62,036 nucleotides of DNA from Salegentibacter echinorum (GTDB lineage Bacteria > Bacteroidota > Bacteroidia > Flavobacteriales > Flavobacteriaceae): contig NZ_FQVT01000016.1 of NCBI RefSeq assembly GCF_900129445.1, forward strand, positions 1 to 62,036, read 5' to 3'. Of this stretch, positions 28,360 through 50,257 are shown piece by piece. Position 1 is the first letter of the stretch; each line of letters opens with the position of its first letter. Both the position numbers and the translations under genes were made by a program. The notes below the pieces were generated by a model that was not told the DNA's origin, made no database searches, and was given only the letters and a program-made list of their open reading frames with translations.

Positions 28360-29841
28360 ATGAGTTCAGACCGCAGATCATTCTTAAGAAATATGGCTCT
28401 GGGAGGAGGGGCAATCGCAACCGGATCTATGTTATCCTCTTGTAGTAGTGAAGAAAAACTAGCTCAAATAAAAGCCGCCGCGAGCCGCAAGCCTAGTATG
28501 AATTTTAATATGAGTGGTTATGCTGCCCCACCGCTTGATACTGTTAGAATAGGTATTGTGGGGATTGGTGACCGCGGTGCGGGTGCGGTAGAACGCATGA
28601 CCTATATTGAAGGCGTAGAAATTACCGCGCTTTGTGATAAACGCCAGGCAGCCGTAGATGGCGGACAAAAAATTCTTCAGGAAGCCGGACTTCCAAAAGC
28701 AGCAGAATTTGCCAATAGTGAAACGGCTTATAAAGAAATGTGCCAGAGTGATCTGGTAGATTTAGTATATGTAGTAACTTCCTGGGATTGGCATATCCCT
28801 ATCGCTTTAGAGGCAATGGAAAACGATAAGCACACGGCAGTAGAAGTTTCTACCGCCAGGACGATGGACGAATGCTGGCAAATCGTGGAAACTTCAGAAC
28901 GCACCAAAAAACACTGCGTGATCCTGGAAAATTGCTGCTATGATTATTTTGAACTGCTAACCCTTAATATGGTGCGCCAGGGTGTTTTTGGTGATCTTAT
29001 TCACGGGGAAGGCGCTTATATCCACGATCTGGATTACTGGCATTTTAACAAGCCGCAGGACGATAAAATGACAGATGGTGCTTATACAGATTATTGGCGC
29101 CTTGAAGAAAACAGAAGACACGCCAATGTATACCCTACTCACGGACTTGGGCCCATTTGTCAGGCCATGAATATAAACCGCGGCGATAAAATGGATTTTC
29201 TTACCTCCATTATGTCCGATGATTTTACTTTAGGAAAAAGGATTGAAGAAGAAGCTAAAGAAAACCCAGAGCTGAAGCAGTTTGTAGGTGCAGATATGAG
29301 AGGTAATATGGATATCCAGCTTATTAAAACCAATAAGGGCCGTACTATTATGATTCAGCACGATGTGACCTCACCAAGGCCTTATTCCAGAATTCATATG
29401 TTGAGCGGAACAGAATGTTTTGCTCAAAAATGGCCTTTAAAACATATTGCCTTTGGTCACGATGTAGCCGATGATGCAAAAATGAAAGAACTGGAAGAAA
29501 AATACACCCCAGAGATTTTAAAACGCGTAGGTGAAATGGCCAAGAAAGTTGGCGGCCACGGTGGGATGGACTTTATTATGGACTGGCGTTTAATTGACTG
29601 CCTCAGAAACGGGTTGCCAATGGATATGGATGTATATGATGCCGCTTCCTGGAGTTCTTTAACCCCGCTAAGTGAATGGTCTATTGCCAATAAATCGAAT
29701 TCTATTGAAGTGCCAGATTTTACCCGGGGTGCCTGGAAAACCAATAAGCCTGTAGATCTAAGTATGTCTGGTAAAGCTGGTTCTACTGGAGTTAGAAACC
29801 TGGAACGTACAGGAGCTGGAACCCAGTTGGATGTAGAGTAA
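28360..29841 (+). CDS. GH109-family NAD-dependent glycosidase (alpha-N-acetylgalactosaminidase-like), Tat lipoprotein
   Basis: A 493-residue Gfo/Idh/MocA-fold protein. A twin-arginine motif (DRRSFLR, residues 4-10) precedes a lipobox Cys28. The residues after it (SSEE) resemble a Bacteroidota surface-export signal. The NAD-binding loop GIVGIGDRG begins at Gly65. The blocks THGLGPICQAMNINRGDKM and GGHGGMDFIMDWRLIDC, with the VYDAASWSSL tail, match GH109. This family removes terminal alpha-GalNAc by an NAD-assisted oxidation-elimination mechanism and is known for cleaving A-antigen and mucin-type glycans. It faces away from the glycoprotein-degradation genes to its right, which probably share its substrate. 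Confidence 0.85.
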   Translation: MSSDRRSFLRNMALGGGAIATGSMLSSCSSEEKLAQIKAAASRKPSMNFNMSGYAAPPLDTVRIGIVGIGDRGAGAVERMTYIEGVEITALCDKRQAAVDGGQKILQEAGLPKAAEFANSETAYKEMCQSDLVDLVYVVTSWDWHIPIALEAMENDKHTAVEVSTARTMDECWQIVETSERTKKHCVILENCCYDYFELLTLNMVRQGVFGDLIHGEGAYIHDLDYWHFNKPQDDKMTDGAYTDYWRLEENRRHANVYPTHGLGPICQAMNINRGDKMDFLTSIMSDDFTLGKRIEEEAKENPELKQFVGADMRGNMDIQLIKTNKGRTIMIQHDVTSPRPYSRIHMLSGTECFAQKWPLKHIAFGHDVADDAKMKELEEKYTPEILKRVGEMAKKVGGHGGMDFIMDWRLIDCLRNGLPMDMDVYDAASWSSLTPLSEWSIANKSNSIEVPDFTRGAWKTNKPVDLSMSGKAGSTGVRNLERTGAGTQLDVE

Positions 29842-34949: not shown

Positions 34950-37514
34950 TTATTTATTTTCTTTTAAAATTCCGCTTAGTTCACCTTCAAAATTATGCAT
35001 AGGGAAATTATCGTTAATGACATCTCCCTCTTTGTTAATGGCCACATACCTCGGGATACCATTAAATTGGAACAATTCCCTTAAATATTTGTAGTCATCA
35101 TCAGATAGTCTATAAACATGTTCAAGCTCCTGCTCTTCAACAAATTTTTTATATTGGGGAATCGGGGAAGAATGGTCGGTTATAAAAATGAAGACAAAAT
35201 CTTTATTGCCCTTATATTTTTCGCGGGTATCTTTCATCCTTTTAATGCCGGCAATACAAGGACCGCACCAGGTTGACCAAAAATCCACAAATACTATTTT
35301 TCCTTTAAACGGATCTACGATGCCTTTAAACACATCAGTTGCTTTTCCTGGAGGTAGTTTGTAGGCCGTTTTTCCGGTTTCCGGAAATAATTCTTCTACA
35401 ATCCTATCGCCTTCCTCAATTAAAAACGGATGGCTTATGTCTTTCTTTAAGCGCTTCCAATAGTCTCTTGCAACTTCGGGCTTAGACCTTTCTATGTCAA
35501 ATTTAAGTGCCCTAAGTTTTACAATTTCATAAGCCAGGGATTTTTCCAAACCCATTGCCTGGGTCAACACAGAATCGCGTAACCTCCATTTTTCCATGGA
35601 AATTTGTTGGGGTTTAGCTTGAGCGGCTTTTAACGGCTTAAGATATTTATCTGAATAAACTTCCAGCTCTTCTTTATATTTTTCCCTAAATGCTATAAAA
35701 TTCTCATGGTTTTCTTTATAAAACTGTTTCGCTTTTTCTAAAGACGTCCATGAACGCTCTGCATATAATGCTTTTTCGTCTTTTGAAATTTGTATGCCCT
35801 CATCTTCAAAGTATTCTAAAATGCTTTTTTCAGGTTGGGTCGAATTATTCTTTGGATGGATATTTAATGGTTCAGCAAATTCCAACTGGTTTATAAAACC
35901 TCCAAATTCTCCAGAAACTAAGAGACTTTTAGCATCTAAAGGCATATCCTTTAAAAAATCATAGAAATCTATAGGAACAGGTAATTTTAAAACCGCATTT
36001 GTAGTATCCCTTGTGGCTTCATATTTTCTATCATTCACATAGTTCAGTAGGGTGTAAGCATTTTTCAACAGGATTTTGTTCTTTAAAACCGAATAGACTT
36101 TAGGCAAAATAGTTGTTTTCTTTCCCTGTGTTTTTCCGTCCAGGCTCTTTTCAGTTTTAATCACAGATGCATGGGCTTTATAAGCATCAAGAGCATCTAA
36201 ATCTTGCTTTAGATTTTCTAATTGCTCTTCCTTAAATGCTTTGGGCGGTAGTGTTTTTAGCTTATTCCTTAATTCATTATAATCTGTACCCCTAAAATCA
36301 AAACCTATTAATTCCTGGTTCTCGGTTGCCAAGGGGCCTTTAAAGTCCACATTTTTGAATTTATTTTCAAATAAACTCGCTATATCCATCTGCAAAAGCT
36401 CAAACAAATCTAGCGTTATTGCCAGGGTTTGGCCGGATTCTATATAAAAAGGGATCACTTTATTTTCTATAACAAATTGTGTGGTATATAAGGGGGCCGA
36501 TATGGATAAATCTGCTTCAAATCGGCCATCTGGGTGAATTTGAACTACAACTGGAAAATCTTCGCCGGTAATATCATTGCCCAGGTATATAATCCCTGTG
36601 GTAAAGCCTAAACTCACATCATAGCCTTTTAGATAGCCTATTATCCTAGCAGTGCCCCTTTTAAAAAATTGTGGCGAATCAAAGTCTTTTAGCGGTTTTG
36701 CCTTTACTTTTGCCAGTTCATTATCTATCCACTTAGATACTTTTTCAGGAACACTGGAAGCTCCTTTTTCAGCGGACAGATATTTTTTACCATTTTCTGA
36801 AGAAGCATATTCCGCGAAATTTTTAATTCTTACATTAGGAAGTTCTTTGTGCGCTTTATACGCATCGCCGGCCTTCCCATTAAAACCAACCTGCAAATAA
36901 TGCTCATCCCAATTTTTAAAATAGAACATCCGGTAATCTTTCCCGTTTTTAACGATAAAGCGGTATTCCCCGGTTTCGTTTGGCCTAAAATGAACCACTT
37001 CTTCAATATTATAAGCTTTGTCCCGGAATACAATTTGTTCCGGTTCCAACTTGAATTCCAGGTTGTTTTCCCCATCGGTGGTAAACCAGGTTTTCTTTAT
37101 TTCATTTGGAACATTGGCCATCGTTACACGTTTGGATCCCAACGGGTCCTTGTGCTTTACAAAGAGACGGAAATTGCCATCGCCCCTTTTTAATTTGATG
37201 GAATCTTTTGCCAAAATTTCCAATTCATAACGCTGAATGTTTTCTTGTCTATCCATTGCTTCAAAGACAAAAATGCCATTAGCTTTCTTACGAATGTCCT
37301 GATATAAAAAAGGACGATACCCAAATTCTATAAAATCGGGATGGATCAATAAACCGTTGTATTCCCCGTTTCCGGTGTTGCCCTGCCACTCGCCGAATAC
37401 GGTTTCGGGGAGGCTTGTTTTGCTGCTATTTATATCTTGGGCATGGCCAATACTTATAAAAAGCATAAAAAGGCAAATACCGGTTTGTTTGATGGTCCTG
37501 GTTCGGTTTTTCAT
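34950..37514 (-). CDS. Large secreted TlpA-type thioredoxin-domain protein (copy B, mosaic)
   Basis: An 854-residue protein with a signal peptide ending GHAQ. Residues about 30-240 repeat the N-terminal domain of copy A almost residue for residue. From residue about 255 (VSKWIDNELAKVKAK) to the end it is instead homologous to the TlpA-type protein at 50535-52415. That part includes the ARIIGYLKGYD block, the helical middle and the thioredoxin domain WSTWCGPC (Cys750, Cys753) with FNGIPRYVAI. The gene is therefore a fusion of two paralogues' parts. Likely a periplasmic or surface thiol-disulfide protein in the same operon as copies A and C. Confidence 0.85.
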   Translation of the reverse strand: MKNRTRTIKQTGICLFMLFISIGHAQDINSSKTSLPETVFGEWQGNTGNGEYNGLLIHPDFIEFGYRPFLYQDIRKKANGIFVFEAMDRQENIQRYELEILAKDSIKLKRGDGNFRLFVKHKDPLGSKRVTMANVPNEIKKTWFTTDGENNLEFKLEPEQIVFRDKAYNIEEVVHFRPNETGEYRFIVKNGKDYRMFYFKNWDEHYLQVGFNGKAGDAYKAHKELPNVRIKNFAEYASSENGKKYLSAEKGASSVPEKVSKWIDNELAKVKAKPLKDFDSPQFFKRGTARIIGYLKGYDVSLGFTTGIIYLGNDITGEDFPVVVQIHPDGRFEADLSISAPLYTTQFVIENKVIPFYIESGQTLAITLDLFELLQMDIASLFENKFKNVDFKGPLATENQELIGFDFRGTDYNELRNKLKTLPPKAFKEEQLENLKQDLDALDAYKAHASVIKTEKSLDGKTQGKKTTILPKVYSVLKNKILLKNAYTLLNYVNDRKYEATRDTTNAVLKLPVPIDFYDFLKDMPLDAKSLLVSGEFGGFINQLEFAEPLNIHPKNNSTQPEKSILEYFEDEGIQISKDEKALYAERSWTSLEKAKQFYKENHENFIAFREKYKEELEVYSDKYLKPLKAAQAKPQQISMEKWRLRDSVLTQAMGLEKSLAYEIVKLRALKFDIERSKPEVARDYWKRLKKDISHPFLIEEGDRIVEELFPETGKTAYKLPPGKATDVFKGIVDPFKGKIVFVDFWSTWCGPCIAGIKRMKDTREKYKGNKDFVFIFITDHSSPIPQYKKFVEEQELEHVYRLSDDDYKYLRELFQFNGIPRYVAINKEGDVINDNFPMHNFEGELSGILKENK

Positions 37515-37568
37515 TTTGGCTGGGTATTTCTTATTAGTTTATTCTATGATAAAAGAGCTATGCAAAGC

Positions 37569-38825
37569 CTACTTGATTTGTGTTTTCAATACTTTTCTTA
37601 CTTCATCTGCCGTTGGATTTTTGGATAAAATTTCCCCGTTTTTGTCAATTAGGAACATTGCACCACCGCCGCGAACGCCATATTTTTGCCATACCTTCTG
37701 CTGTCTGTCCAGATCTACTAAGTTTAGCCAGGGATATTTTTCCTTTTCAAGAAAGCTTTCCAACCTATTCGTGCCGCGAAATTCCCCGGCAACCCCCACT
37801 ATGGTGAATCCTTCATCGTGAAATTCGTTGAACACGGGAACCATCGTTCGGCTTTTGGCAATACAGGGGCCACACCAGGTTGCCCATAAATCCAGTAGCG
37901 CAACTTTTCCTTCTATTTTGTCGGAAAGTTTTATCAGCTTGCCCTCTAAATTGGGAGCTGAAAAATCTACATATTGTTTTCCTACTTTTATGTTATCAAT
38001 AGCATCAATCAACCCCAAAGCCATGTCATTATAAGGATGATTGGGATTGGCCTGGGAAAGCTTTTTGTAATTGTGCCGGGCCAAATTTACATCGGGTGTT
38101 TCTATGGGATTAATAAGACTTTTTAAAAATAAGTAGTAGGAAACTATCGTGGGGTTTTCGTCTATATAATCCTGTTGGTATTTTTTTGTTTTTTTTCGAA
38201 GCTTATATGCTTTATCATCCAATGCTTTTGCCTTCGGCGTTTTATCCAGTCTCTTTTCTTCTAAGCGTTCCTTTTTTTTATAAATAACAAGTTTCTCTTC
38301 TTGTGATTTGGCTTCGTTCAGTTCGGCTAAAACTGCTTTCATCTGCTCACTGTGATATTCGTCGCTTTTATAAAGCGCCCTCATCTTATCTGTATATTGA
38401 GCTATTTGACTTCCAAACTTTGATTCACGTTCATCCCTATATGCTTTATATTCGGCATTAAGCTTCCCACCTTCTACCTCGTTTTTGTCAAAATCCTCTT
38501 CTGGATAAATGATCAATTCAATTTTTTCGTTTTCTAGAAACAAGGGCATATAACGTCCGCCTCCGTTTTCTTTTACGTTTCCAAAAAATAAGCTAACGGC
38601 CTCTGGATGTTGCAGTTTGGTTTTATAGGTGAATTTTCCTTTTTTTACCGGTATCTCTATCACGGGATCAAACCTCCAATCCTGATTTAACTTGATTAAC
38701 AAGATTGATTCCACAGTGGTATCAAGCACTTTTCCGTTGATTTCCAAAGATTGGGCTTTTGTAGCTGAAGAACTAAGCAAGCATACTATGAATAGTAGGA
38801 ACGTGGTTTTTGTAATGAATTTCAT
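37569..38825 (-). CDS. Secreted TlpA-type thioredoxin-domain protein (copy C)
   Basis: A 418-residue protein with a signal peptide ending TKAQ. An N-terminal DUF4369-like beta domain (residues about 28-130) and a charged helical region precede a TlpA/ResA thioredoxin domain. That domain has WATWCGPC (Cys318, Cys321) and an unusual glycine-rich loop, YGVRGGGAMFLID, at the cis-Pro position: the usual Pro is not present. The missing cis-Pro would weaken classic thioredoxin substrate binding. It begins 83 bp after the LytTR regulator gene and probably belongs to its transcript. Confidence 0.85.
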   Translation of the reverse strand: MKFITKTTFLLFIVCLLSSSATKAQSLEINGKVLDTTVESILLIKLNQDWRFDPVIEIPVKKGKFTYKTKLQHPEAVSLFFGNVKENGGGRYMPLFLENEKIELIIYPEEDFDKNEVEGGKLNAEYKAYRDERESKFGSQIAQYTDKMRALYKSDEYHSEQMKAVLAELNEAKSQEEKLVIYKKKERLEEKRLDKTPKAKALDDKAYKLRKKTKKYQQDYIDENPTIVSYYLFLKSLINPIETPDVNLARHNYKKLSQANPNHPYNDMALGLIDAIDNIKVGKQYVDFSAPNLEGKLIKLSDKIEGKVALLDLWATWCGPCIAKSRTMVPVFNEFHDEGFTIVGVAGEFRGTNRLESFLEKEKYPWLNLVDLDRQQKVWQKYGVRGGGAMFLIDKNGEILSKNPTADEVRKVLKTQIK

Positions 38826-38908
38826 ATAGTTGTATTAAGTTTTTGTAACAAGAATTAAAGTTATGGACAGGAAAGATTTTTATACTGAAATCTAATTTAA
38901 CAAATTAT

Positions 38909-39670
38909 TTACATATTTAACCAATTTTTAATCTTTTTCTTATAATTTCTACCGGTTGTTATTTTCGTTTTCTTTCTATTTCTTAAAGTGATTATATATC
39001 GGCTATTGAAATATTTTTGAACGTTTTCAGCATAATTCTTATTGATGATAAAGCCTCTGTGTACCCTTAAAAAGTAAGGGGGCAGTTTCATCTCCAATTG
39101 CGATAATGAGAGTTCAGTGAGATGGGTTTCGGTATCGGTATGAACACTACTGTATTTTGCATCTGCTTCAAAATAGTGGACGTCTTCCAATTTCACGAAA
39201 AACAGTTTCTCTCCTTTCCTAACGGTAATGGAGGTCATTGTTTTAGTATCCTTTTCGGTAGCTATTTCTTTAATGGCTTCCAATAATTTCCCGGAACTCT
39301 GCCTTCCCTCAAATAAAGTCAGTTTTTTAATTGTTTTTTCCAGGCGTTCCAACCGTACAGGTTTTACCAGGTAATCGATGCTGTGGGTTTCAAAAGCCTG
39401 TAACGCATATTCATCAAAAGCGGTGCAAAAAATTACCAGGGGGATGTGGTCTAATTCTTCCAACAACTCAAAGCCCGTAAGCCCCGGCATTTCAATATCC
39501 AAAAAAATAATATCAGGATTTAACCGGTTTATTTTCTCCTTGGCTTCCGTCCCGTTTTTTGCAGTATCAATAACCTCAAAGTGCTGCGGAAAATGTGCCA
39601 CTTGTTCCAACAAGCGTTCCCGGGCCAAAAGTTCATCGTCTATAATAATTATTCTATAAGGTGGATTCAT
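38909..39670 (-). CDS. LytTR-type response regulator 1
   Basis: A 253-residue regulator. The receiver domain (residues about 5-120) has the acidic pocket Asp11-Asp12 and phospho-acceptor Asp58 in IIFLDIEMPG. A LytTR DNA-binding domain (about 150-253) has FFVKLEDVHYFEADAKYSSV and LRVHRGFIINKNYAE. LytTR domains bind paired 9-bp direct repeats. It starts 2 nt after its histidine kinase stop. Likely target: the repeat pair at 41618-41644 ahead of its own operon. Confidence 0.93.
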   Translation of the reverse strand: MNPPYRIIIIDDELLARERLLEQVAHFPQHFEVIDTAKNGTEAKEKINRLNPDIIFLDIEMPGLTGFELLEELDHIPLVIFCTAFDEYALQAFETHSIDYLVKPVRLERLEKTIKKLTLFEGRQSSGKLLEAIKEIATEKDTKTMTSITVRKGEKLFFVKLEDVHYFEADAKYSSVHTDTETHLTELSLSQLEMKLPPYFLRVHRGFIINKNYAENVQKYFNSRYIITLRNRKKTKITTGRNYKKKIKNWLNM

Positions 39671-39672
39671 GG

Positions 39673-41547
39673 CTAATACTCGTTTTCTATGCTAATTTTA
39701 ATATGTTTGGTGGGTGCATTTTTCCAGCTTATGGAGGCTTTATTGCTATAGGTTAAGCGCAATAAATCGAAGACCGTTTGCAGCCCGTGGCCACTCACTA
39801 AACTTTCCTGGAAATTGGGGCCATTATCCTCTACCGTAATACTAAAGCCCACCTCTTCTTTTTGGATGATAAGGCTTATTTGACCGCTATCCTCCAATTT
39901 GGAAATCCCGTGTTTTACCGAATTTTCTATTAAAGGCTGAATAAGGAACATGGGGATTCTTGTGTTTTCCAGGGATTTATCAACGTTGAGGGTGAAGTTT
40001 AAACGGTCGCCAAAACGAATCTGCTCTACCTCCAAATAGTTGTTAACCATTTCCACCTCATCGCCAATAGTGCTGTCTTTTCTGCCTTTACGGTTAATGG
40101 TATATTTGAAAAGATCTGATAAAGACAAGGCCATCTTCTCGGTTTTATCGGCGTTTTTATGCGCCAAACTTGCAATGGAATTTAAGGCATTGTATAAAAA
40201 ATGGGGGTTGATTTGCGATTGTAAGAGTTTAACCTGGGCTTGCGAGTTTACTTCTTTAAGTTTACTCATTTCCAGGTCTTTTTGTTTGATTAAGTTTTCT
40301 GAAAAATGATTGAGGTAAATTAAAAAACCTCGGCCTACTGATAAGGCAATCCACAGAAATAGCCCCGGCAAAAAGAAATCGATACCTTCATCTCTGTGCC
40401 CGTTAAAGAAAAATATTAATATAAGGGGTGCAATAAAAGCAATAAATGTAAAGAGTACTTTTTGTAGTAATTGCGAACTGAAGTTTATTTGCTTTTTAAC
40501 AAGAAATTTATCCGTTGCCCACATTATAAAAGAGGTCAATAGTGCAAATAATGGAATAGCTGTCATCATAAACAAAACTGAATTCCACCAACTAATAAAA
40601 CTATCAAAATCTGTAAGATAGTTGTAGATCCAATGGAGATTAGCAAGATGTGCCCATATTAATAATACAGGAAGGAAGTAATTTAAATAGGAATACTTGA
40701 ATTTCTTATTCTGAAAAAAACTGAACAACAACAAAAAAACGACCAATCCCAATAGACTGACAACACCTATTGCCAGCAAATCCATACTTTTCTTGTGTAA
40801 AAAAGAATAGGCATACCGCCAAGGGTAATTAGCATATAAATAATCTTCAAATTGTTCTAAAAAATCATCTGAATACAACTTTTGTAATAAAAATTTGTCT
40901 CTGTCCCTAATAAAAAAATCTAAACTGGTTATCTTTTTGCTCCGGAATAAAGATCTTCCTTCGATCTCTGAATCATTTTGAAGAAAGACCAGTTTTCTTA
41001 ATAACCCTGCTTTTAAAGATTTCTTTCTTACTTCATGGCTGTTAGCAATATAAGAGCGCTCCTCTAAAATATAAACTCTCATGTAAGGCCCTATTTCCAA
41101 CTTATTGCCCTTCCTAACGTTCCGAGGTATCTCTAAAAAATGTCCATTTGCTAAATCTATAATCTGCTTGTTGGGATTAGTATAGATTGATTCATGAACA
41201 AATACGATATGTATCCAAGGCTCAGTAATTTTACCGGAAGGCTTTAAAATACGAATTTCCTTGTTCGGCAATATTTCTCTAATGTCTAAAATCGCTTCTT
41301 CAACCAATAAGCTATCTTCCTTTTTCGTCGAATCTGCTAAAACAATGGTAATATCTCCTTCCAGTCTCCCAAAAAATGGAGTTTTTCCATCGAATATTCT
41401 ATCTTTTATATAGTCCCATTTTTTTAGTTCAGATTGCTTAGCATGAGAAGCTTCTATTTCCTCAACCTGCTGACTTATAGACTTGTCGGAATGGATAAAA
41501 AACGGAGTAATTATTAAAATAAGTATTAATGTGATAATTCTCTTCAT
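39673..41547 (-). CDS. LytS/YehU-type sensor histidine kinase 1
   Basis: A 624-residue membrane kinase with an N-terminal signal-anchor. About 200 residues lie outside the cytoplasm, five transmembrane helices cover residues about 255-420, and a His_kinase domain follows. The H-box is QINPHFLYNALNSIASL and the N-box PLIENSVKHGI; the G-box region ends GHGLQTVFDLL. This class signals to LytTR regulators. The extracellular domain has no recognised ligand family. It is paralogous to the kinase at 42581-44479 with the same layout. Confidence 0.92.
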   Translation of the reverse strand: MKRIITLILILIITPFFIHSDKSISQQVEEIEASHAKQSELKKWDYIKDRIFDGKTPFFGRLEGDITIVLADSTKKEDSLLVEEAILDIREILPNKEIRILKPSGKITEPWIHIVFVHESIYTNPNKQIIDLANGHFLEIPRNVRKGNKLEIGPYMRVYILEERSYIANSHEVRKKSLKAGLLRKLVFLQNDSEIEGRSLFRSKKITSLDFFIRDRDKFLLQKLYSDDFLEQFEDYLYANYPWRYAYSFLHKKSMDLLAIGVVSLLGLVVFLLLFSFFQNKKFKYSYLNYFLPVLLIWAHLANLHWIYNYLTDFDSFISWWNSVLFMMTAIPLFALLTSFIMWATDKFLVKKQINFSSQLLQKVLFTFIAFIAPLILIFFFNGHRDEGIDFFLPGLFLWIALSVGRGFLIYLNHFSENLIKQKDLEMSKLKEVNSQAQVKLLQSQINPHFLYNALNSIASLAHKNADKTEKMALSLSDLFKYTINRKGRKDSTIGDEVEMVNNYLEVEQIRFGDRLNFTLNVDKSLENTRIPMFLIQPLIENSVKHGISKLEDSGQISLIIQKEEVGFSITVEDNGPNFQESLVSGHGLQTVFDLLRLTYSNKASISWKNAPTKHIKISIENEY

Positions 41548-41573
41548 AGCCCTGCTTTTAAAAGATCATAACC

Positions 41574-41644
41574 CAAAGAAACTTGAAAAGTCGTTGCGCT
41601 GAAACCTTTTTCTGACAAACTGCATATAGTTGGTATTAACTGCA
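41574..41644 (-). promoter_or_regulatory. LytTR-operator-like direct repeat and promoter of kinase-regulator operon 1
   Basis: On the minus strand two TGCAGTT copies (41638-41644 and 41618-41624) stand at a 20-bp period, 71-97 nt before the kinase ATG. A weak -7 box, TTTCTTTG, follows at 41574-41581, 26 nt before the ATG. The geometry is identical in operon 2 (44506-44576). Paired direct repeats about two helical turns apart are the known binding pattern of LytTR domains such as AgrA (ACAGTTAAG). Confidence 0.7.
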
Positions 41645-41752
41645 TTAAAAAACTCTTGACAGATCTAGTGCTGACCTGAAATGTCCATGTTTGACCCAGG
41701 ACCTAAAGGGAACCAAGGTCATTTCAAGCTTTTCATCCTTTAGGGCGGGGGT

Positions 41753-41774
41753 AAAAAAGATTGAAATTTTCAAT
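41753..41774 (-). terminator. Possible terminator after regulator 2
   Basis: ATTGAAA and TTTCAAT arms (41760-41774) are followed on the minus strand by six T. The stem is short, so the call is weak. It would separate operon 2 from the promoter of operon 1. Confidence 0.35.
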
Positions 41775-41826
41775 ATTTACTTAGACTGTTTAGTTCCACC
41801 CCTCAAATAACTTGATCTATGATGCA

Positions 41827-42588
41827 TTACAAATTCATCCATTTCTTAATCATTTCCTTATAACTTCTGCCTGTAGTTATTTTCGTTTCTTTTTTAGCTT
41901 TTAAAGTAATGACATACCTGCTATTAAAATATTTCTGTACTTCCCGCACATAGTCTTTGTTTATGATGGCTGAACGCTGCACCCTTAAAAAATTATCCGG
42001 TAACTTTTGCTCCAATTGGTCTAAAGGCTCTTCGGTTAAAAATTTTCCTTCTTTGGCGTGTACCGCCACATAGCGTTCTTCGGCGCTAAAGTGACTCACT
42101 TCCTCCAGTTTTATAAAAACAAGTTTATCGTCTTTTTTAACCGTAAGGGAAGTCATTTCCTGTTTCTGCTTTCTGGAAGATAGCTCCTTTAAAAGGCCTG
42201 CAATATTTTGATCAGGAATAGTTTTGCTGAATTGCTTTAACTTATTGACCGATTGCTGCAAGCGTTCTAGGCGCACCGGTTTTACCAGATAATCGATGCT
42301 ATTGGTGGTAAAGGCCTTTAGGGAATATTGGTCGTAAGCCGTGCAAAAAATCACGATGGGGATATAGGTTAAAGTTTCCAGCAGTTCAAAACCGGTCAAT
42401 TCCGGCATTTCGATATCCAGGAAAATAAGGTCTGGTTTTAAGCTTTCAATCTTTTCCCTTGCGATCAACCCATTTTCGGCAACCCCGATTACTTCAAAGG
42501 TATCGGTGAAATTTTCCAGTAAATTGAGCAAACGTTTTCTTGCCGGCGGTTCATCGTCTATTACCAGGGTCTTATATATTCTAGTCAT
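41827..42588 (-). CDS. LytTR-type response regulator 2
   Basis: 253 residues from the MTRIYKTLVIDDEPPARKRL start at 42588. A longer frame from 42666 lies entirely inside the kinase gene, and this ATG overlaps the kinase stop by 8 nt in the usual way. The receiver has Asp58 in LIFLDIEMPE. The LytTR domain has VFIKLEEVSHFSAEERYVAV and LRVQRSAIINKDYV. It is the same length as regulator 1 and closely similar, a duplicated pair. Its likely operator is the repeat pair at 44550-44576. Confidence 0.93.
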   Translation of the reverse strand: MTRIYKTLVIDDEPPARKRLLNLLENFTDTFEVIGVAENGLIAREKIESLKPDLIFLDIEMPELTGFELLETLTYIPIVIFCTAYDQYSLKAFTTNSIDYLVKPVRLERLQQSVNKLKQFSKTIPDQNIAGLLKELSSRKQKQEMTSLTVKKDDKLVFIKLEEVSHFSAEERYVAVHAKEGKFLTEEPLDQLEQKLPDNFLRVQRSAIINKDYVREVQKYFNSRYVITLKAKKETKITTGRSYKEMIKKWMNL

Positions 42589-44479
42589 GGGCGTTACTTT
42601 TTTTAATGCTGATAAGGATTTGTTTTTGGGGGCTGTTTTCCCAACGCAGACTTGCGTTTTTGCCATAGCTTAAGCGCAGCAGGTCATAGACGGTTTGCAA
42701 GCCGTGACCACTTACCAGGCCTTCCGGAAAACCGGGGCCATTATCGCTTACGCTGATCAACAGGCCTTCCTTTTCTTTTGTGATGTTTAAACTTACCTTC
42801 GCTTCGCCGCCTATTTTAGAAACGCCGTGTTTAATCGCATTTTCCACCAAAGGTTGAAGCATAAACATCGGGATTTTCTCTTCTTCTGCTGTCTCATCAA
42901 CTTTAAGCGTGAATTTTAAGCGCTCGCCAAAACGTATTTTCTCGATCTCCAAATAATTTTCCACCAGGGCTACTTCCTCTGCAACCGTACTCATTTTTTC
43001 ACCTTTTTTATTGAGGGAGTACCGGAACAAATCAGACAAGGATAAAGCCATTCGCTCTGTTTTATCGGAATCGTCTTTGGCCAATCCCGCAATGGAATTT
43101 AATGCATTGTATAAAAAATGCGGATTGATATGCGACTGTAACAATTTTAACTCGGATTGCGTATGGGCTTCTTTAAGCTGGCTGAGTTCGACGTCTTTTT
43201 CGTTGACTAAAGAATTGGAGATATGGTTTAAGTAGATGAGTAAACCTCTGCCCAATGAAAGGAATATTGAAATGATTAACCAAGGAAAATAAAATTCTAA
43301 AAATTCAACATCTTTTAGTGCGATATTTTTGCCAGTTAAATATAAAGAAATGAATAGCGGTAAATGAAGTGCTATAAAAGTGAATACTATTTTTAATATC
43401 AGTTGAAAAGAAAAATCAAAACTCATTTTGATAAACATTTTTTCTAAAAAATAAAGTAGTGTTGCACTAATAATTGCTAATAACCCAATAAATATAAAAC
43501 CAAACGATATACTTCCACCCCAAGTAATCGAACTATTTAACTCTGTTAAATAGTCATAGATCCAAGTAAGGTTCATTATATGAAAGTCTATTAACACCAT
43601 GGGGAACAAGTAATTAAGATAGGCATGTTTAAACTCTCTATTTTGAAAAAAACTAAATAGAAGAATAAATATAATAATTCCAACAGCTGTAACTATACTG
43701 ATGGCCAGCATCTTCATTTTCTCTTTGTTCAAAAAAGAATAGGCATATTGCCAAGGATAATAGGTACATAAATAATCTTCAAATTGTTGTTTAAAATCAT
43801 CTGCATATACTTTTTGAAGAAGGAATTTATCCTTATCGCCTAAAAACCCATAAGAATGATTATAATCGCTATTGTTAAATCGTTGCACATCAAATTGGTT
43901 ACTGTACCCTTTTTGGGTTGCTTTAGTACCAAAAACACCTTGCCATAATTCGGTGTTTATATACATTTCTCTATTCTGGTCAGAAATATCTTCTTTAAAT
44001 TTAAACTCGAATAAAGTGTGTCTACTCATATCTGAAGTAGTCACAAAACCCGAGTATGACTTTAAGATAATGGTGCCATCTTCTAACTCTCTTTTTTCAA
44101 AATAGTCATGAAGTTGAGATTCTGTTCCAAAACTTAATTGCACATAGTGGAACGGAAATCTTTCGCCATCTAAATTATTTAAACCTATTTTTATAGAGGG
44201 TAGTAAATTTTTTACTTTTTTTATAAAGTCAACAACTATTAAACTGTCTTTTGCAGGAGTACCATCGTTCAAGATAATTATAACTGGCTTATTGTAACCT
44301 GTATACAAAACCTTGTTTTCATTAAAAGCCCTGATTTTTACATATTCCCATTTAACCGTTTCAGGAGTTTTTGAATTATGTTCACTTATTTTTTGTGCTT
44401 TTTCACTTATTGATTTCTCAGAAGTAACCAAGAATGGTGTGATTAGTAAAATAAGAATAAGCGCTATGAGCTTTTTCAT
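42581..44479 (-). CDS. LytS/YehU-type sensor histidine kinase 2
   Basis: A 632-residue paralogue of kinase 1 with an N-terminal anchor, an extracellular region, several transmembrane helices between residues about 255 and 425, and then the kinase core. The H-box is HINPHFLYNALNSIAGL, the N-box PLVENAIKHGV and the G-box DNGPGFPEGLVSGHGLQT. The kinase core is well conserved with kinase 1, while the extracellular part is much less so, suggesting different ligands. The regulator gene overlaps its end. Confidence 0.92.
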   Translation of the reverse strand: MKKLIALILILLITPFLVTSEKSISEKAQKISEHNSKTPETVKWEYVKIRAFNENKVLYTGYNKPVIIILNDGTPAKDSLIVVDFIKKVKNLLPSIKIGLNNLDGERFPFHYVQLSFGTESQLHDYFEKRELEDGTIILKSYSGFVTTSDMSRHTLFEFKFKEDISDQNREMYINTELWQGVFGTKATQKGYSNQFDVQRFNNSDYNHSYGFLGDKDKFLLQKVYADDFKQQFEDYLCTYYPWQYAYSFLNKEKMKMLAISIVTAVGIIIFILLFSFFQNREFKHAYLNYLFPMVLIDFHIMNLTWIYDYLTELNSSITWGGSISFGFIFIGLLAIISATLLYFLEKMFIKMSFDFSFQLILKIVFTFIALHLPLFISLYLTGKNIALKDVEFLEFYFPWLIISIFLSLGRGLLIYLNHISNSLVNEKDVELSQLKEAHTQSELKLLQSHINPHFLYNALNSIAGLAKDDSDKTERMALSLSDLFRYSLNKKGEKMSTVAEEVALVENYLEIEKIRFGERLKFTLKVDETAEEEKIPMFMLQPLVENAIKHGVSKIGGEAKVSLNITKEKEGLLISVSDNGPGFPEGLVSGHGLQTVYDLLRLSYGKNASLRWENSPQKQILISIKKSNAHD

Positions 44480-44505
44480 CGTGATATATTTAGAAATTTA
44501 CACCA

Positions 44506-44576
44506 CAAAAGAACACCAACAATGGTGTGTATAAAACCAATTTCGGTTGAACTGCAACTATGGGGAGTGAACTGCA
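44506..44576 (-). promoter_or_regulatory. LytTR-operator-like direct repeat and promoter of kinase-regulator operon 2
   Basis: On the minus strand TGCAGTTCA occurs twice (44568-44576 and 44548-44556) at a 20-bp period. A weak -7 box, TTCTTTTG, lies at 44506-44513, 26 nt before the kinase ATG. Repeat-to-ATG distances (71-97 nt for the TGCAGTT core) equal those of operon 1. The -7 box lacks the TA of the consensus, as expected for an activator-dependent promoter. Confidence 0.72.
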
Positions 44577-44588
44577 TTTTTTAGGGAT

Positions 44589-45008
44589 TTAAGGCTGTTG
44601 TTCCCTAGTGTTTGTAGCGGTGACCTGGTTAAGGATTAACTTCCGGGCTTTGTTGAGTCCGATACCTACGAATAAGAGGATTATCCCAAAGGATAAGTCT
44701 TCCCAGGCACCGGCAATACTAAACTTTGGGGCAGCACTGGAATAAATTTCCTCAAAGATATTTTTAATAATGTTGGCCACAATAAGGCCAATCCCGCCAA
44801 AAAGGAAGATTTTGTTTAATATAATCAGCAGCAAAACGATATAGTCCCGGGCCGGGGATTGCTTTGAACTTGTAAAAATGTTTTTAAATAAATTGACAAG
44901 GATCAAAAAAGCGAAAAACAGCAGGAGGATAAAAACAAAGTCTTTAAACATGGTTGGGAACTGCGCCTGCAGCAGGTCGGTTTTTAAATTAAAAGATTGG
45001 TTTTCCAT
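44589..45008 (-). CDS. Small integral membrane protein, unrecognised
   Basis: A 139-residue protein with three predicted transmembrane helices (about residues 20-42, 55-82 and 105-122) and short charged loops. No family motif is seen. It lies directly upstream of the kinase 2 promoter and 56 bp downstream of the DUF4419 gene, so it may be cotranscribed with the latter. A membrane accessory role is conjecture. Confidence 0.65.
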   Translation of the reverse strand: MENQSFNLKTDLLQAQFPTMFKDFVFILLLFFAFLILVNLFKNIFTSSKQSPARDYIVLLLIILNKIFLFGGIGLIVANIIKNIFEEIYSSAAPKFSIAGAWEDLSFGIILLFVGIGLNKARKLILNQVTATNTREQQP

Positions 45009-45064
45009 TGTTGGGTTTTAAAAGATTTCTGAAGTTTACATATTTAAGTTGCGGTTTGCTGCTG

Positions 45065-46930
45065 TTACTGCACCCGCACCCGGTTTACATAGATTTTTGT
45101 TTCCGGTAAAAGGCTTTTGATCTTTTTTATGTTTTCGGGAGTGGTCTTATTGATCACCGATATGTTTCTGATTTTTATATCCCCAATCCAATCCGGTATT
45201 TGGATTTCATTTTCAAAATTATAATTACGCACCTCCAGCACCCAGATCTCATCCAGTTTTTTCAGACTTTCCGGAATCGAATCTCGGACAACGATCCAGC
45301 TGTTATCCCTAATTCTGTGGCTTTTAGGATTATTTTTAATTTCGGCTTCCGTAAAAGATTTTATGGCTGTTTCTTCTCCAGAATCCGGGTTTCGGTCTTC
45401 TTTATTTATTTCATCTGATTTATTTGGTGTTGGAAATGGAACGATCACAAACTCATCGTTTATTTGCCCTGATTTTTTGGATGTTTGAAACGGAAAAATA
45501 ATAATTTCAGCCGTACCTTCTTTTCGGGTTTTACGACCGTTGATTTCAATTTGAGTCTTCGGAAACCATTTTATGATTTTTTCTTTTTCAGATTTTGAAA
45601 TCTCACCTGTTATCTTCAATTGTCCTATACGGATCTCCTTAAGCCATTTTGGAATATGCACTTTTTGAGTGAATTCAAGGTTTAGGGTATAAATTTCCTC
45701 CAAATTCTTTAGTACCTCCGGTATCTCGATTATCCTGAGGTTAATTCCAGATCCCGGAAAATAAGAAGGATAATTTTCCGCCTCCAATTTTTGCTGCAAA
45801 GCTTCCTGATCCACATCTTTTTTCCTGATCATCCAGCTGATCTTTGGCGTGAGCGCAAAGGTCTCTGGGTTTTGCTCCAAACCGATAAAACCGGCCCACA
45901 ATTCCAGCATGGTCGTTTGGGTGTGCCCTCCATTAACCTCAACATGCTTTAAATCGACTTTTACCATTTCTTCGGGCAGGCTTCCGCCGCCTTCCAGCTT
46001 TTTTAGATTGTTTCGTTTTCCATCTTTGTCATAGGGAAAGAATTTCACGATCCAGCCGTCGATAATGTTGGGGGCGCCGTATTTTTCCTGGGAGTGATAC
46101 TTAAACATATTTCTCCAGAAGTCTTTGTCTATAACCCCACTTGAAGCTCTTACAAATTCCTGAAGCAGAGGCTCAAGTTCGCCGGTCCACCATTTTAAAT
46201 TGTATTCTTCCAGTTTCCTGGTCTTATCAAGTATTTTTTGCCAATCTTCAGGAGTTCCTTCTAAAGTGATTTTAGGAATACCGCATACCACCAGCATGTG
46301 TACAAACTCGAAATAAGGCTCCATAGCTTCCATTATGGTGATTTCAGAAGCTACTCTTTCAATTGATGTAGTAGTTGAAAAATCTGATGACAGGATACCG
46401 ATGAGTTCTTCCCCCGTATGTTCCGCTATTTGTGAAGTAAATTGGGGAAAAACCGCTTCCCATTTTTTTACGTCTGAGGTCAGTCCATCTTCTGATTCGA
46501 CTACCAGGCTGAGTTTTCCCGAAAAATCAACAAGATCTTTTCTTAAAATCTCGGGATTGGCATTTACGTGCCGGGCAAATCCCTGGCTGATCAGCAACCA
46601 AACCATATCCGGAGACAATACAAAAGGCCGATGGTCTGCATAAGCCGCGTACATCCCATTGAAGAAAGAGTTGTAGCCATAATTTACCAGGCTGTCCGGT
46701 GCGGCGCTTTTTGCCATAATTTTGTAATCGAAGTCTAGATTGTGCTGCTCCAGGTCCCATTTGCGGAGGTCTGCATCTTTTAAGATCAGGTTTTCATAAA
46801 TATCATTGTAAGATTGCAGGCGCAAGAACTTATCCGGTGGAGAAAGTTCCTCGACCTCAAAAGTGATTCCTTCCTGTCCGCAGAGGATAAGCGGAAAGCA
46901 GATCAGTAGGGTTTTTATAAGGTTTTTCAT
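45065..46930 (-). CDS. Secreted DUF4419 protein with C-terminal extension
   Basis: A 621-residue protein with a signal peptide (CGQ near residue 19). Residues about 90-420 match DUF4419: HRPFVLSPDMVWLLISQGFA, the VHMLVVCGIPKITLEGTPEDW block, and WWTGELEPLL followed by FWRNMFKYHS and INGGHTQTTML-like segments. The last 200 residues contain two similar blocks (ending KWFPKTQIEINGRK and SLLPETKIYVNRVR), each preceded by a leucine-spaced stretch. They look like a repeated small domain. Family function unknown; it sits between glycoprotein-degradation genes and the kinase genes. Confidence 0.85.
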   Translation of the reverse strand: MKNLIKTLLICFPLILCGQEGITFEVEELSPPDKFLRLQSYNDIYENLILKDADLRKWDLEQHNLDFDYKIMAKSAAPDSLVNYGYNSFFNGMYAAYADHRPFVLSPDMVWLLISQGFARHVNANPEILRKDLVDFSGKLSLVVESEDGLTSDVKKWEAVFPQFTSQIAEHTGEELIGILSSDFSTTTSIERVASEITIMEAMEPYFEFVHMLVVCGIPKITLEGTPEDWQKILDKTRKLEEYNLKWWTGELEPLLQEFVRASSGVIDKDFWRNMFKYHSQEKYGAPNIIDGWIVKFFPYDKDGKRNNLKKLEGGGSLPEEMVKVDLKHVEVNGGHTQTTMLELWAGFIGLEQNPETFALTPKISWMIRKKDVDQEALQQKLEAENYPSYFPGSGINLRIIEIPEVLKNLEEIYTLNLEFTQKVHIPKWLKEIRIGQLKITGEISKSEKEKIIKWFPKTQIEINGRKTRKEGTAEIIIFPFQTSKKSGQINDEFVIVPFPTPNKSDEINKEDRNPDSGEETAIKSFTEAEIKNNPKSHRIRDNSWIVVRDSIPESLKKLDEIWVLEVRNYNFENEIQIPDWIGDIKIRNISVINKTTPENIKKIKSLLPETKIYVNRVRVQ

Positions 46931-46956
46931 TTTGTCGATTAATTTCAGATATTTGG

Positions 46957-47382
46957 TTATTCAACCTTTTTCCAAATTTCGTTGTATGGGTTTCCTATTC
47001 CTTCAATAGTCAACAAATCATCTTCAATTTTATACTTATAAGAAAATGTATCCCCTAATAAAGTATTGAAATTTGAATTTGTATATAAAATATGCTCTGT
47101 ATATACGTCTTTATCAATCGTATAAGAACCCACGAAACTATTTAATACTTGTTTGTGTTTTGAATTTAAATCTATTAAAGTGAATTTATCTGACGATATT
47201 ATCTTGTACCTAATCTGGTTTTTATTTCCATAAAGATTTTCTTCTACCTCTCCCGCAGCATTACACATTTGCCAGGTTCCAATTAAATCATCTTTTGGAC
47301 TATTCACTTTTTGTACACCACAACTAATAATTGTCATCATTACTGTTATAGCAAAAACACTTTGTTTAATAATTTTCTTCAT
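46957..47382 (-). CDS. Small lipoprotein, lipocalin-like
   Basis: A 141-residue lipoprotein with lipobox Cys21 (IISCGV). LIGTWQMCNAAGE begins the mature fold and INGK-like strands follow: KFTLIDLNSKHKQVLNSF, VGSYTIDKDVYTEHI and a terminal YNEIWKKVE. The pattern is that of lipocalin-like domains in Bacteroidota (DUF4488-like). Function unknown. It lies 26 bp upstream of the DUF4419 gene and is probably in its transcript. Confidence 0.65.
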   Translation of the reverse strand: MKKIIKQSVFAITVMMTIISCGVQKVNSPKDDLIGTWQMCNAAGEVEENLYGNKNQIRYKIISSDKFTLIDLNSKHKQVLNSFVGSYTIDKDVYTEHILYTNSNFNTLLGDTFSYKYKIEDDLLTIEGIGNPYNEIWKKVE

Positions 47383-47520
47383 CTTTTTTAATTTTATGGT
47401 TTTTGTTTCTTTGCTTATCCGCTTTATTTCCTATGCCAGGAGCTTAGAATTTAAAAGCCGAAAAAGTTTTTCCTCAACCCTATAGGGTGAACTTTTTCTA
47501 TATAATTTATTCTTTAATTA

Positions 47521-47560
47521 GAATTTTAGCTCCCTTTAGGGCCGGAGAAAACTAAAATTC
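47521..47560 (-). terminator. Possible terminator after the DUF4190-like gene
   Basis: GAATTTTAG (47521-47529) pairs with CTAAAATTC (47552-47560), with a further CTCC/GGAG stem inside. It lies in the 308-bp gap 47383-47690, which otherwise holds no gene. The trailing T tract on the minus strand is weak. Confidence 0.4.
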
Positions 47561-47690
47561 AGCTTTTTATTTTTTAGGAGTCTTTACGATATGCATTTAT
47601 TTTTTATAAATGGAATTTCGAAAAAACTAATTTCTTACAGCTCCAAAAAACAGGGCAATAACGGTCTTCTATATTGCAGTCGGTTTCTAT

Positions 47691-48011
47691 TCAACTAAAT
47701 GAAACCAGGCTCCCAAATATTGCTAATCCTGCAAATAAGAAAATCAATAAAATTACACCTATCAGTGATATTACAAGTCCGGCAATTGCGAGTCCGTTGG
47801 GCTTGTTGAATAGGCCAACAAAAGACAAAATCAAACCCAGCAGCCATAAAATCCAACCTAAAAACGGGATCCATCCAAGAAATAAAGCAATCAAGGCTAA
47901 AACAAAACCTGCGGTTCCAGTTCCGTTCGATTCATTTTGACCTGGTTGCATAATAATGGTTTGTCTTTTATTGTCATTTTCGGGTTCGTAAGCTTGTCTA
48001 TTTTCATTCAT
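47691..48011 (-). CDS. DUF4190-like small membrane protein
   Basis: A 106-residue protein with a polar, Asn/Gln-rich N terminus (residues 1-32), then two or three hydrophobic helices. TAGFVLALIALFLGWIPFLG and GLAIAGLVISLIGVILL are typical of the DUF4190 group. The final residues FAGLAIFGSLVSFS recur as a broken copy at 50406-50463. No function is known. Confidence 0.75.
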   Translation of the reverse strand: MNENRQAYEPENDNKRQTIIMQPGQNESNGTGTAGFVLALIALFLGWIPFLGWILWLLGLILSFVGLFNKPNGLAIAGLVISLIGVILLIFLFAGLAIFGSLVSFS

Positions 48012-48240
48012 GATTTTTCACGGTTTTTTAATACTGGTTTCAATAATCTTTCTTTTAGCTGAATATCCACATTTGCGAATACGGGATGTTAGCAGTTTTA
48101 CCGATACGTTCAACCTGGCAAGCTCCTTTATCTCATCGGTTGGAGTTTATGCCCAATTTTATCATATATCGGTTCTCCGTGCTTTTAAAATTTGTTAATA
48201 TCAGACTAAGAAATAGAATTTTATTTGAACAGGGGTGATT

Positions 48241-48669
48241 TTATAAATTTGATCTATTGTAAACGAAATTCCTCACTTCCTTTGAAACTTCAATATCAAT
48301 TCCAATTACCCTATTTTTTTTCTTTTTACCATTGCTTACGAATGAAATCCAAACTTTACTATAATTTTCAGTTTTCTTTGAAGCCTTAGAGATTATTTTC
48401 GCACAGCGTTTTCCAAATGATTCATAATCTTCAATTGGCTTACTGGCATTAAAAATTTCTACTTTTATGGTGCTTAAAGGTCCTTCCTTTAAGTCGTTTG
48501 AGGGATTTCCTATCATTTTATATTCAATTTTTTGGCATTCTGATAATGTTTTAATGTTAGCGATTGCTGCTGATATATTTTTATCGGTTGGAGTAAATGG
48601 ATCTGATTTACAGGACGAAAATAAAATCAATGCCAATCCAATGAGCAGTATTATTTTCTTATTTTTCAT
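48241..48669 (-). CDS. Small lipoprotein, unrecognised
   Basis: A 142-residue protein with lipobox Cys20 (SSCKSD) and a mature domain with the pattern ISAAIANIKTLSECQKIEYK, then a Lys-rich stretch and two beta strands. I recognise no family. Its start overlaps the end of the M60 peptidase gene by 11 nt, so translational coupling with that protease is likely. Confidence 0.65.
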   Translation of the reverse strand: MKNKKIILLIGLALILFSSCKSDPFTPTDKNISAAIANIKTLSECQKIEYKMIGNPSNDLKEGPLSTIKVEIFNASKPIEDYESFGKRCAKIISKASKKTENYSKVWISFVSNGKKKKNRVIGIDIEVSKEVRNFVYNRSNL

Positions 48670-50257
48670 CTTTTAAGGTGCTAATATCAACCTTTGGCTT
48701 TGGTAGGTTCATTGCCTCAATTTCTGCCTTGCATTTGTCCACCATTTTCTGGGTCATTTTATAGCTGTAATTTCCGTAGTCGTTATAATCAAATTCCCCT
48801 ACGTAGAAAAACCCATATTTGTCAAAGAAATCGGTTAGGTCTGTCTGACTAACTTCAGAAGCTGTTTTTACAAAATTCAGTTGATATTGCGCAGGATTAT
48901 TACCCCTGGCTCCCCAGCCACCGGAATGTCGTGCCCCTCTTCCTTCCTTCCGGCTTTCCTGCCCTTGTTGCCGAAAAGCTTCAAAAAGATCGGGATAGAA
49001 ATCTGGATTTTCTCCTATTCCCGCAAAATAGAGTTGTAATTGCCAAAATGGAACTACTCTATTAAAAACATCTCCATCCTGTAAATAGTTTATATCTCCT
49101 TCGATAATACTTTCTCGCGATTTCGCATAATTATTTTGTCTGGAAATTCTACTTTCATTGCCGAAGGAGGTAGTTACATATAATGAAAAAATGTTATTAC
49201 TTACCTCTCCTAAACCGCCCCAATTAAAATATGGGCGCAACTGGTGTACATGGCCAACCTCGTGACTAAAGCCCCAGCAGGGATCGCCTTTTATCACGCG
49301 GTCTGGATCTACCACCATAGGCATCGCATTGCCCGGCTCTGTACCCATATATGCAACTCCATCTCCATCCCTAAACATATAGTAGTTATAATTTACCCGG
49401 GCTAAAATGTGGTTTTTGGGAACTTTGTCATATTTAATCAATCCCAATATGCGATGTTGTTTATAGACCAGGGAATCGTAATTATTTATCAACTCCATTC
49501 CTCTATTATAGGCATATTTTTTTATGGCTGCTGCCGGGTAAGCAATTTGGATATGTTTTCCACGCGCATCCACTATAGGATACACGGCATCATCAACCAG
49601 CGCATTCCAGTCTGCATTACTATCAGTGGTACTATCAAAATAACCATTTACTTTTGCTGCGGGGAAATGTACTTGTATTTCCTTTTCTTTTTCTGGCTCG
49701 TCAGAAAAATAATCTATGTAGGCCAGGCCATCAAATTCTGTTAGGTTTATGATGTTTGCTCCATTTTGAAGTCGGAATTCCTTTTTTTGAATGCCCCATC
49801 CCATGGGATCTTTAGTTGGATCTGTGCCTTCCGGGGCACGACGGTTCCAGTTTACAATTACTAATCCTACTTTGGTGTCCTCGCGAATTCCATCTACAAG
49901 TACAAGCTGCTTTCCTTTAGGCATATAAATACCTGTAATATTTTCATACTTGCTATAGCCGTCTCCTATCATTAATTCCTGTCCTAAAACAGTAGGGGAG
50001 AGGTAAGCTTTATAATTTGCCATTCGAAAGTTAGGATCGTAGTTTTTAGAATATAACTTATTCGCCGTTTCCCGTAAACGTTCATTTTTAATTTTGGCAA
50101 TATCCCGTTTCTTAACCTTCCTTTTTAAAGAAAGGGCCATGGGAGTCTCAAACACAGAAAGGTCCTTGTATATAGAGGCTATTTCGGTAGCTGATTGGCC
50201 GTGTGCCGTCACTATAAAAAAAGTGCCAATGAGAATTGAAATTAACTGTTTTTTCAT
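48659..50257 (-). CDS. Secreted M60-family metallopeptidase (copy 1)
   Basis: A 532-residue protein with a signal peptide ending AHGQ. The M60 catalytic site is HEVGHVHQ (His332, Glu333, His336) and downstream Glu351 in GLGEVSNNIFSLYV, the HExxH-x(n)-E pattern of this family. M60 enzymes, such as the Bacteroides mucinase and SslE/enhancin relatives, cut O-glycosylated proteins next to the glycan. An N-terminal accessory region (residues about 30-290) has a beta-rich fold. The protein has no lipobox, so it is probably periplasmic or secreted. Confidence 0.88.
   Translation of the reverse strand: MKKQLISILIGTFFIVTAHGQSATEIASIYKDLSVFETPMALSLKRKVKKRDIAKIKNERLRETANKLYSKNYDPNFRMANYKAYLSPTVLGQELMIGDGYSKYENITGIYMPKGKQLVLVDGIREDTKVGLVIVNWNRRAPEGTDPTKDPMGWGIQKKEFRLQNGANIINLTEFDGLAYIDYFSDEPEKEKEIQVHFPAAKVNGYFDSTTDSNADWNALVDDAVYPIVDARGKHIQIAYPAAAIKKYAYNRGMELINNYDSLVYKQHRILGLIKYDKVPKNHILARVNYNYYMFRDGDGVAYMGTEPGNAMPMVVDPDRVIKGDPCWGFSHEVGHVHQLRPYFNWGGLGEVSNNIFSLYVTTSFGNESRISRQNNYAKSRESIIEGDINYLQDGDVFNRVVPFWQLQLYFAGIGENPDFYPDLFEAFRQQGQESRKEGRGARHSGGWGARGNNPAQYQLNFVKTASEVSQTDLTDFFDKYGFFYVGEFDYNDYGNYSYKMTQKMVDKCKAEIEAMNLPKPKVDISTLKDEK

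Follow-up and report, generated by a model that had tools for sequence, protein, structure and literature searches.

Direct repeats before two paralogous kinase–LytTR operons of Salegentibacter echinorum as probable autoregulatory activator sites whose flanks follow one regulator residue

Two tandem operons on contig NZ_FQVT01000016.1 of Salegentibacter echinorum (the window, the whole stretch of 62,036 nucleotides analysed here) each encode a membrane histidine kinase and a LytTR response regulator, and each carries just upstream of the kinase gene a pair of TGCAGTT repeats that, judged by comparison with related genomes, is a real operator of the known LytTR direct-repeat kind. The favoured model, to which we give a probability of roughly 0.78 as a whole, is that each operon opens with an activator site for its own regulator. 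A signal would lead the membrane kinase to phosphorylate this regulator, which would then bind as a pair to two direct half-sites about two helical turns (20 or 21 bp) apart. The proximal half-site would adjoin the -33 element, and bound regulator would bring RNA polymerase to a promoter predicted to have little activity of its own, given a -7 box of TTnnTTTG in place of TAnnTTTG. The resulting positive feedback would act on the kinase, the regulator and, in operon 1, the downstream thioredoxin-like proteins. Both paralogues would use the TGCAGTT core and each would read its own flank, through Lys172 and GTC for regulator 1 and through Arg172 and CCG for regulator 2; because of this, the two loops would be at least partly insulated.

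Exact TGCAGTT-N13-TGCAGTT was found at only two places in the window, before the two kinases (Table 1). The earlier note on this DNA had placed the repeats identically before both genes, and its description proved exact, including the distance from the -7 box to the ATG: the start codons lie at 41547 (kinase 1) and 44479 (kinase 2), and both -7-like boxes end 26 nt upstream. Also common to the two operons are GGTTTY at position -33 and a GAAA that follows the proximal half. With up to three mismatches, 11 sites were observed in the window against 5.27 expected, a number reached by 1 of 100 shuffles.

A scan of the organism's own genome (3,963,528 bases) for the repeat pair returned three exact matches, two of them the window sites and the third inside a dispersed CAGT-rich repeat. 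Allowing two mismatches gave 52 sites, of which only the two in the window were followed by NNNNNGAA. The dispersed repeat, which holds several CAGT units (GCAGTnnCAGTcGCAGT; e.g. G000:C16:259830-259856, C21:60169-60215 and C38:60495-60527), mimics the operator; with membership defined as at least three CAGT per 27-base site, it accounted for 17 of the 52 sites, none of the 17 inside an open reading frame (ORF) of at least 100 aa. The existence of this intergenic family is the one point in favour of taking the window repeats for chance or for part of the dispersed repeat. The window sites, however, lack its internal CAGT units, and their position is kept before relatives in other genera; this conservation rules the explanation out, and its probability is close to nil.

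A separate two-mismatch site, TGCCGTT-N13-TGCCGTT-CGTCTAAAA (G000:C17:24994-25020, locus L018), has a flank resembling the GTC class. The end of a 488-aa gene directly precedes it and a terminator-like hairpin follows; with no ORF of at least 100 aa starting within 300 nt, it may belong to a short RNA or be due to chance. The genome has 11 LytTR genes. The nine other LytTR loci, taken with 1.5 kb on each side, held no comparable pair, the best period-20 total being 11 of 14; because the loci reach only this far, a promoter more than 1.5 kb from its LytTR gene would be missed. A site common to all LytTR loci of the genome was rejected on these totals.

Relatives were collected with a four-kinase profile search, which gave 22 in 16 of 397 genomes of the family; three candidates were scored per genome, so the count stands for at least 16 of 397. 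The first set of 22 operons comprised 20 of these 22 upstream regions and two from Polaribacter septentrionalilitoris (L052). Two loci, L138 and L152, were dropped from it, their true starts lying outside the frame shown, and their operons (G209 and G061b) were read later. The search for later operons was extended to the vicinity of G228, to the genera of G374 and G006 and to the order, and six in all were added, giving a full set of 28 operons in 20 genomes. A broad collection was also scanned with the kinase alignment (common INPHFLY motif); among the 80 matches listed only L052 was used, L053 and L054 were viewed by eye, and the rest entered the matrix scan only, with a best score of 15.9 (L059).

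In the first 22 operons both halves matched the core at 6 or more of 7 positions in 14 at period 20 and in 3 at period 21; in 200 dinucleotide shuffles the period-20 count averaged 0.1 of the 22 and never exceeded 1. Comparison of all 28 upstream regions bore out the pair: at the same threshold the proximal half was kept in 27 and both halves in 21 (15 at period 20 and 6 at period 21). By base counts, four of the 16 bases of proximal half plus flank were identical in 28 of 28 (C3, T6, T7 and A14). The operator form given earlier, TGCAGTT-N13-TGCAGTT, thus holds for the core pair, but the site is larger, its proximal half running on to TGCAGTT-NNNNN-GAAA. Likewise, the 20-bp period stands in the window, whereas relatives use 20 or 21 bp.

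The site was rare elsewhere. The stringent pattern TGCARTT-N13-TGCARTT-YGTCAG, with at most one mismatch, occurred four times in the 397 genomes, by coordinates always just before these kinases, and its reversed control not at all. Exact TGCARTT-N13-TGCARTT occurred 13 times in the 16 genomes with the system (reversed control 0): eight sites before these kinases, two in G203 before other genes, and three unrelated. A matrix of site plus promoter, trained on the 28 operons, was scanned over 1,786,173 bases of fetched loci, a total that counts overlaps repeatedly and includes the whole window. Thirty matches reached at least 31.8 bits, namely the 28 operators and the two G203 sites, and the next best scored 15.9; leave-one-out scores of the 28 ranged from 26 to 55. 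No site was found for the short kinases of another family (G576, G581 and G760).

Downstream of the repeats, a box 37–44 nt past the proximal half ended in TTTG in 26 of 28 operons (exceptions G271 and G115c), with its end fixed at 44 nt. Its first two bases were TT, not the consensus TA, in all 28 of these sequence-predicted promoters; the Bacteroidota primary promoter box TAnnTTTG was found in none, and TTnnTTTG is taken as a weakened form of it. In a flavobacterium the consensus occupies -12 to -5 (PMC9723704, excerpt); by that register the proximal half would span about -55 to -49 and adjoin the -33 element. An activator would be expected to bind there, and the constant departure of the box from consensus, at one and the same base, fits an activator-dependent promoter. 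Binding as a repressor, with negative feedback, would contradict the favoured model and is improbable: the proximal half is situated 5′ of the -33 element and leaves the -7 box uncovered, the off-consensus base is constant in 28 of 28, and the similarly placed LytTR repeats of the LytTR Regulatory System (LRS) operon activate, giving positive feedback (PMC6193735, excerpt). Conservation before relatives, fixed promoter spacing and rarity elsewhere together support the earlier proposal that the repeat pair is an operator, and make autoregulation of both operons, also proposed there, very probable.

The six bases past the proximal half formed three classes among the 28 operons. In the window these bases are TGTCAG in operator 1 and CAACCG in operator 2, and the regulators of the two operons have Lys172 and Arg172, respectively. 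Residue 172 and flank agreed in 28 of 28 operons: Lys with GTC (16/16), Arg with CCG (7/7) and Asn or Val with CAA (5/5). The rule was fixed after 22 operons, and the six read later all fitted it, G463 loosely. Within these six, the genes of G209 and G061b were known before the rule and only their sites were read afterwards, and the held-out set is not fully independent because two of its members, G398a and G398b, have close orthologues in G228_1 and G228_0. In the full set, normalised mutual information with the flank was 0.92 for residue 172 and 0.45 for the next regulator column. Residue 172 aligns two residues before His169 of AgrA (numbering based on FFRCHNS as 196–202; PMC4227749, excerpt), which is one of three DNA-contacting residues of that protein (PMC4064291, excerpt). 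In a structure model of the regulator (mean predicted local distance difference test score, pLDDT, 68.7, poor at the C-terminus) residue 172 falls in a predicted turn between strands 164–170 and 173–178. We consider it an even bet that a one-residue LytTR code operates, in which Lys, Arg or Asn/Val at the position two residues ahead of AgrA His169 picks GTC, CCG or CAA, respectively, behind TGCAGTT. No residue-level specificity code for LytTR regulators was found in searches of an open-licence library, and a paper elsewhere may exist.

The earlier note had also suggested that the regulators may cross-bind, a suggestion that is not favoured by the 6-bp flank, which differs and tracks Lys/Arg in the LytTR loop. 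One common operator, through which the two regulators cross-activate both operons as a single coupled loop, would accord with the identical core half-sites, period and promoter spacing in the window, with the 58% identity of the two LytTR domains, and with the precedent of ComE and BlpR, for which LytTR sites of a hybrid or shared kind are known (PMC5295010, excerpt). It is nevertheless unlikely, and cross-binding appears less probable than insulation: the flanks differ and follow residue 172 throughout the 28 operons, and all four tandem pairs observed (the window, G228, G398 and Polaribacter, with G228 and G398 from one genus) combine two classes. Classes were likewise combined in six of the seven genomes with more than one copy, the exception being G061.

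The match of residue and flank may instead reflect shared descent only, with linked operator and regulator drifting together and residue 172 having no role in specificity. This is possible, at less than even odds. The best regulator tree needs only four class changes, just one independent pair lies on well-supported branches, and every class is compatible with a single origin on the supported branches. Columns just as closely linked to the operator did not, however, match the flank as well: in a control of 27 rows (leaving out G209, whose genes are in pieces) residue 172 reached 0.91, against at most 0.48 for the other 252 regulator columns and 0.50 for 559 kinase columns. In addition, the loop to which the residue belongs is the one that contacts DNA in AgrA, and the best tree requires two changes each for Arg-CCG and Asn/Val-CAA.

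Proteins with a thioredoxin fold, which are probably secreted, form a likely output of the system. A gene matching the 854-aa thioredoxin-like protein of the window by BLASTP lay downstream on the same strand in 6 of 28 operons (window operon 1, G021, G228, G398, G061 and G159); the contigs of G203a and G271 end too early to judge. In G203 an unlinked gene of the same LPE type has its own exact TGCARTT-N13-TGCARTT site, and the second G203 site stands before the gene for a 364-aa protein whose cellulase match is sub-threshold; the two sites are alike only over about 60–80 nt from the site onward. Among three unlinked LPE-type genes the operator preceded this one only, with none in G378 or G250, and the output is not universal because those two genes lack the site. 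A further thioredoxin-like protein of 626 aa in the window (50535-52415) matches the 854-aa protein over residues 252–299 of the latter and has no operator.

Several observations weigh against the favoured model. The distal half fell below 6 of 7 matches in 7 of 28 operons, the proximal half in G250 matched at just 4 of 7, and the kinase gene is in pieces in three operons (G209, G398a and G061b). The likeness of the two window operators is not independent evidence, because both probably descend from one ancestor. As to the flank, that of G463 reads CAAA, not CAAG, both G061 paralogues are of one class, and so are two of the three in G115. The small number of class changes on the regulator tree counts here as well, because the residue–flank code then rests on few events. 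Finally, both extra G203 sites lack the usual -7 box at +44 and carry CCG, yet the two subfamily regulators found in G203 are of the Lys and Asn types; a third regulator may be missing from the fragmented assembly, or the rule may fail.

Table 1. Coordinates of the repeats, predicted promoter elements and genes in the window
Feature	Positions	Strand	Remark
Operator 1, distal half-site TGCAGTT	41638-41644	minus	exact match
Operator 1, proximal half-site and flank TGCAGTT-TGTCAGAAA	41609-41624	minus	GTC class; core 41618-41624
-33-like element GGTTTC, kinase 1 promoter	41601-41606	minus	
-7-like box TTTCTTTG, kinase 1 promoter	41574-41581	minus	end 44 nt past proximal half
Operator 2, distal half-site TGCAGTT	44570-44576	minus	exact match
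Operator 2, proximal half-site and flank TGCAGTT-CAACCGAAA	44541-44556	minus	CCG class; core 44550-44556
-33-like element GGTTTT, kinase 2 promoter	44533-44538	minus	
-7-like box TTCTTTTG, kinase 2 promoter	44506-44513	minus	end 44 nt past proximal half
Kinase 1 (His_kinase PF06580), 624 aa	39673-41547	minus	
Response regulator 1 (Response_reg and LytTR), 253 aa	38909-39670	minus	
Lys172 codon of regulator 1	39155-39157	minus	candidate specificity residue
Thioredoxin-like protein, 418 aa	37569-38825	minus	probable downstream gene of operon 1; co-transcription inferred from 83-nt gap
Thioredoxin-like protein, 854 aa (LPETVFGEW type)	34950-37514	minus	probably secreted (by eye); probable output
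Second LPE-type thioredoxin-like protein, 957 aa	32062-34935	minus	probable output
Kinase 2 (His_kinase PF06580), 632 aa	42581-44479	minus	
Response regulator 2 (Response_reg and LytTR)	41827-42588	minus	start 42588 from alignment with relatives; start in ORF list 42666
Arg172 codon of regulator 2	42073-42075	minus	candidate specificity residue
M60 peptidase (two), SusD-like, SusC-like and glycoside hydrolase 109 C-terminal domain protein genes	48659-50257, 52549-54768, 55957-57771, 57785-60850, 28360-29841		near the operons

The two kinases scored 95 and 99.5 bits with His_kinase PF06580 (cut-off 25.2), and both regulators exceeded the Pfam cut-offs for receiver and LytTR domains. His449 of the kinase, in INPHFLY, and Asp58 of regulator 1 were invariant in the alignments and would be the phosphotransfer residues. 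A structure model of the kinase (mean pLDDT 62.6) gave the cytoplasmic parts of histidine kinases, not a sensor domain, as top Foldseek matches.

Upstream of kinase 2 lies a gene for a 139-aa protein (44589-45008) with no Pfam match at E 0.001. Close to the operons are genes for two M60 peptidases, a SusD-like protein and a TonB receptor (SusC-like), as well as one for a protein that ends in a glycoside hydrolase 109 C-terminal domain; this neighbourhood suggests a glycoprotein-use locus. Among the relatives, the fragmented kinase genes lie at 9041-11703 of L172 (G209), 3861-5721 of L208 (G398) and 4858-6713 of L211 (G061); each of these loci has at least two open pieces, the G209 regulator is likewise in pieces, and operator and promoter look intact.

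LytTR regulators bind DNA via loops, not a recognition helix, and paralogues that have a common core but differ in a short flank and one loop residue make the question of specificity directly testable; the residue code is the part worth testing. If it is true, tandem paralogous kinase–regulator operons could act as autoregulatory loops independent of each other, and the sequence of a subfamily regulator would allow its operator class to be predicted. The comparison also supplies a promoter-anchored operator for a regulator group with a named Polaribacter member, and would tie this group to thioredoxin-fold proteins.

The YpdB and BtsR systems of Escherichia coli pair a LytS-like kinase with a LytTR regulator, as here, but their half-sites and transporter targets are unlike those described above. 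The AgrA motif, ACAGTTAAG as quoted in the earlier note, has the core CAGTT in common with the window operators. At agr P2/P3 of Staphylococcus aureus a LytTR regulator likewise uses direct repeats, which immediately precede its own operon's promoter (PMC4227749, excerpt). The present operators differ from agr in the -33/-7 type of promoter, the conserved flank past the proximal half and the thioredoxin-like outputs. Within 36000-50000, no peptide precursor or AgrB-like processing gene was recognised in the listed ORFs, all of 80 aa or longer, part of which were scanned with Pfam.

The LRS is alike in its 9-bp direct repeats, which lie some 10 bp ahead of the -35 sequence with a gap of 12 (11 or 13) bp between them, and in positive feedback on its own operon; it is unlike in combining a LytTR protein with a membrane inhibitor (PMC6193735, excerpt). 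The regulators here, by contrast, carry receiver domains and follow kinases. LRS-like repeats in Bacteroides, of 11 bp with an 11-bp gap, are also unlike the window operators (PMC6193735, excerpt). ComE and BlpR of Streptococcus pneumoniae are paralogous regulators with similar direct repeats distinguished by very few bases, as proposed here; cross-talk was shown and used there (PMC5295010, excerpt), whereas the class differences described here point to insulation, for which a protein residue is proposed. As in LytTR direct-repeat operators generally, the two repeats lie about 20–22 bp apart, exact in the window and weaker in 7 of 28 operons, and they stand just upstream of the predicted promoter of the regulator's own operon, with the -7-like box at the fixed 44 nt in 26 of 28.

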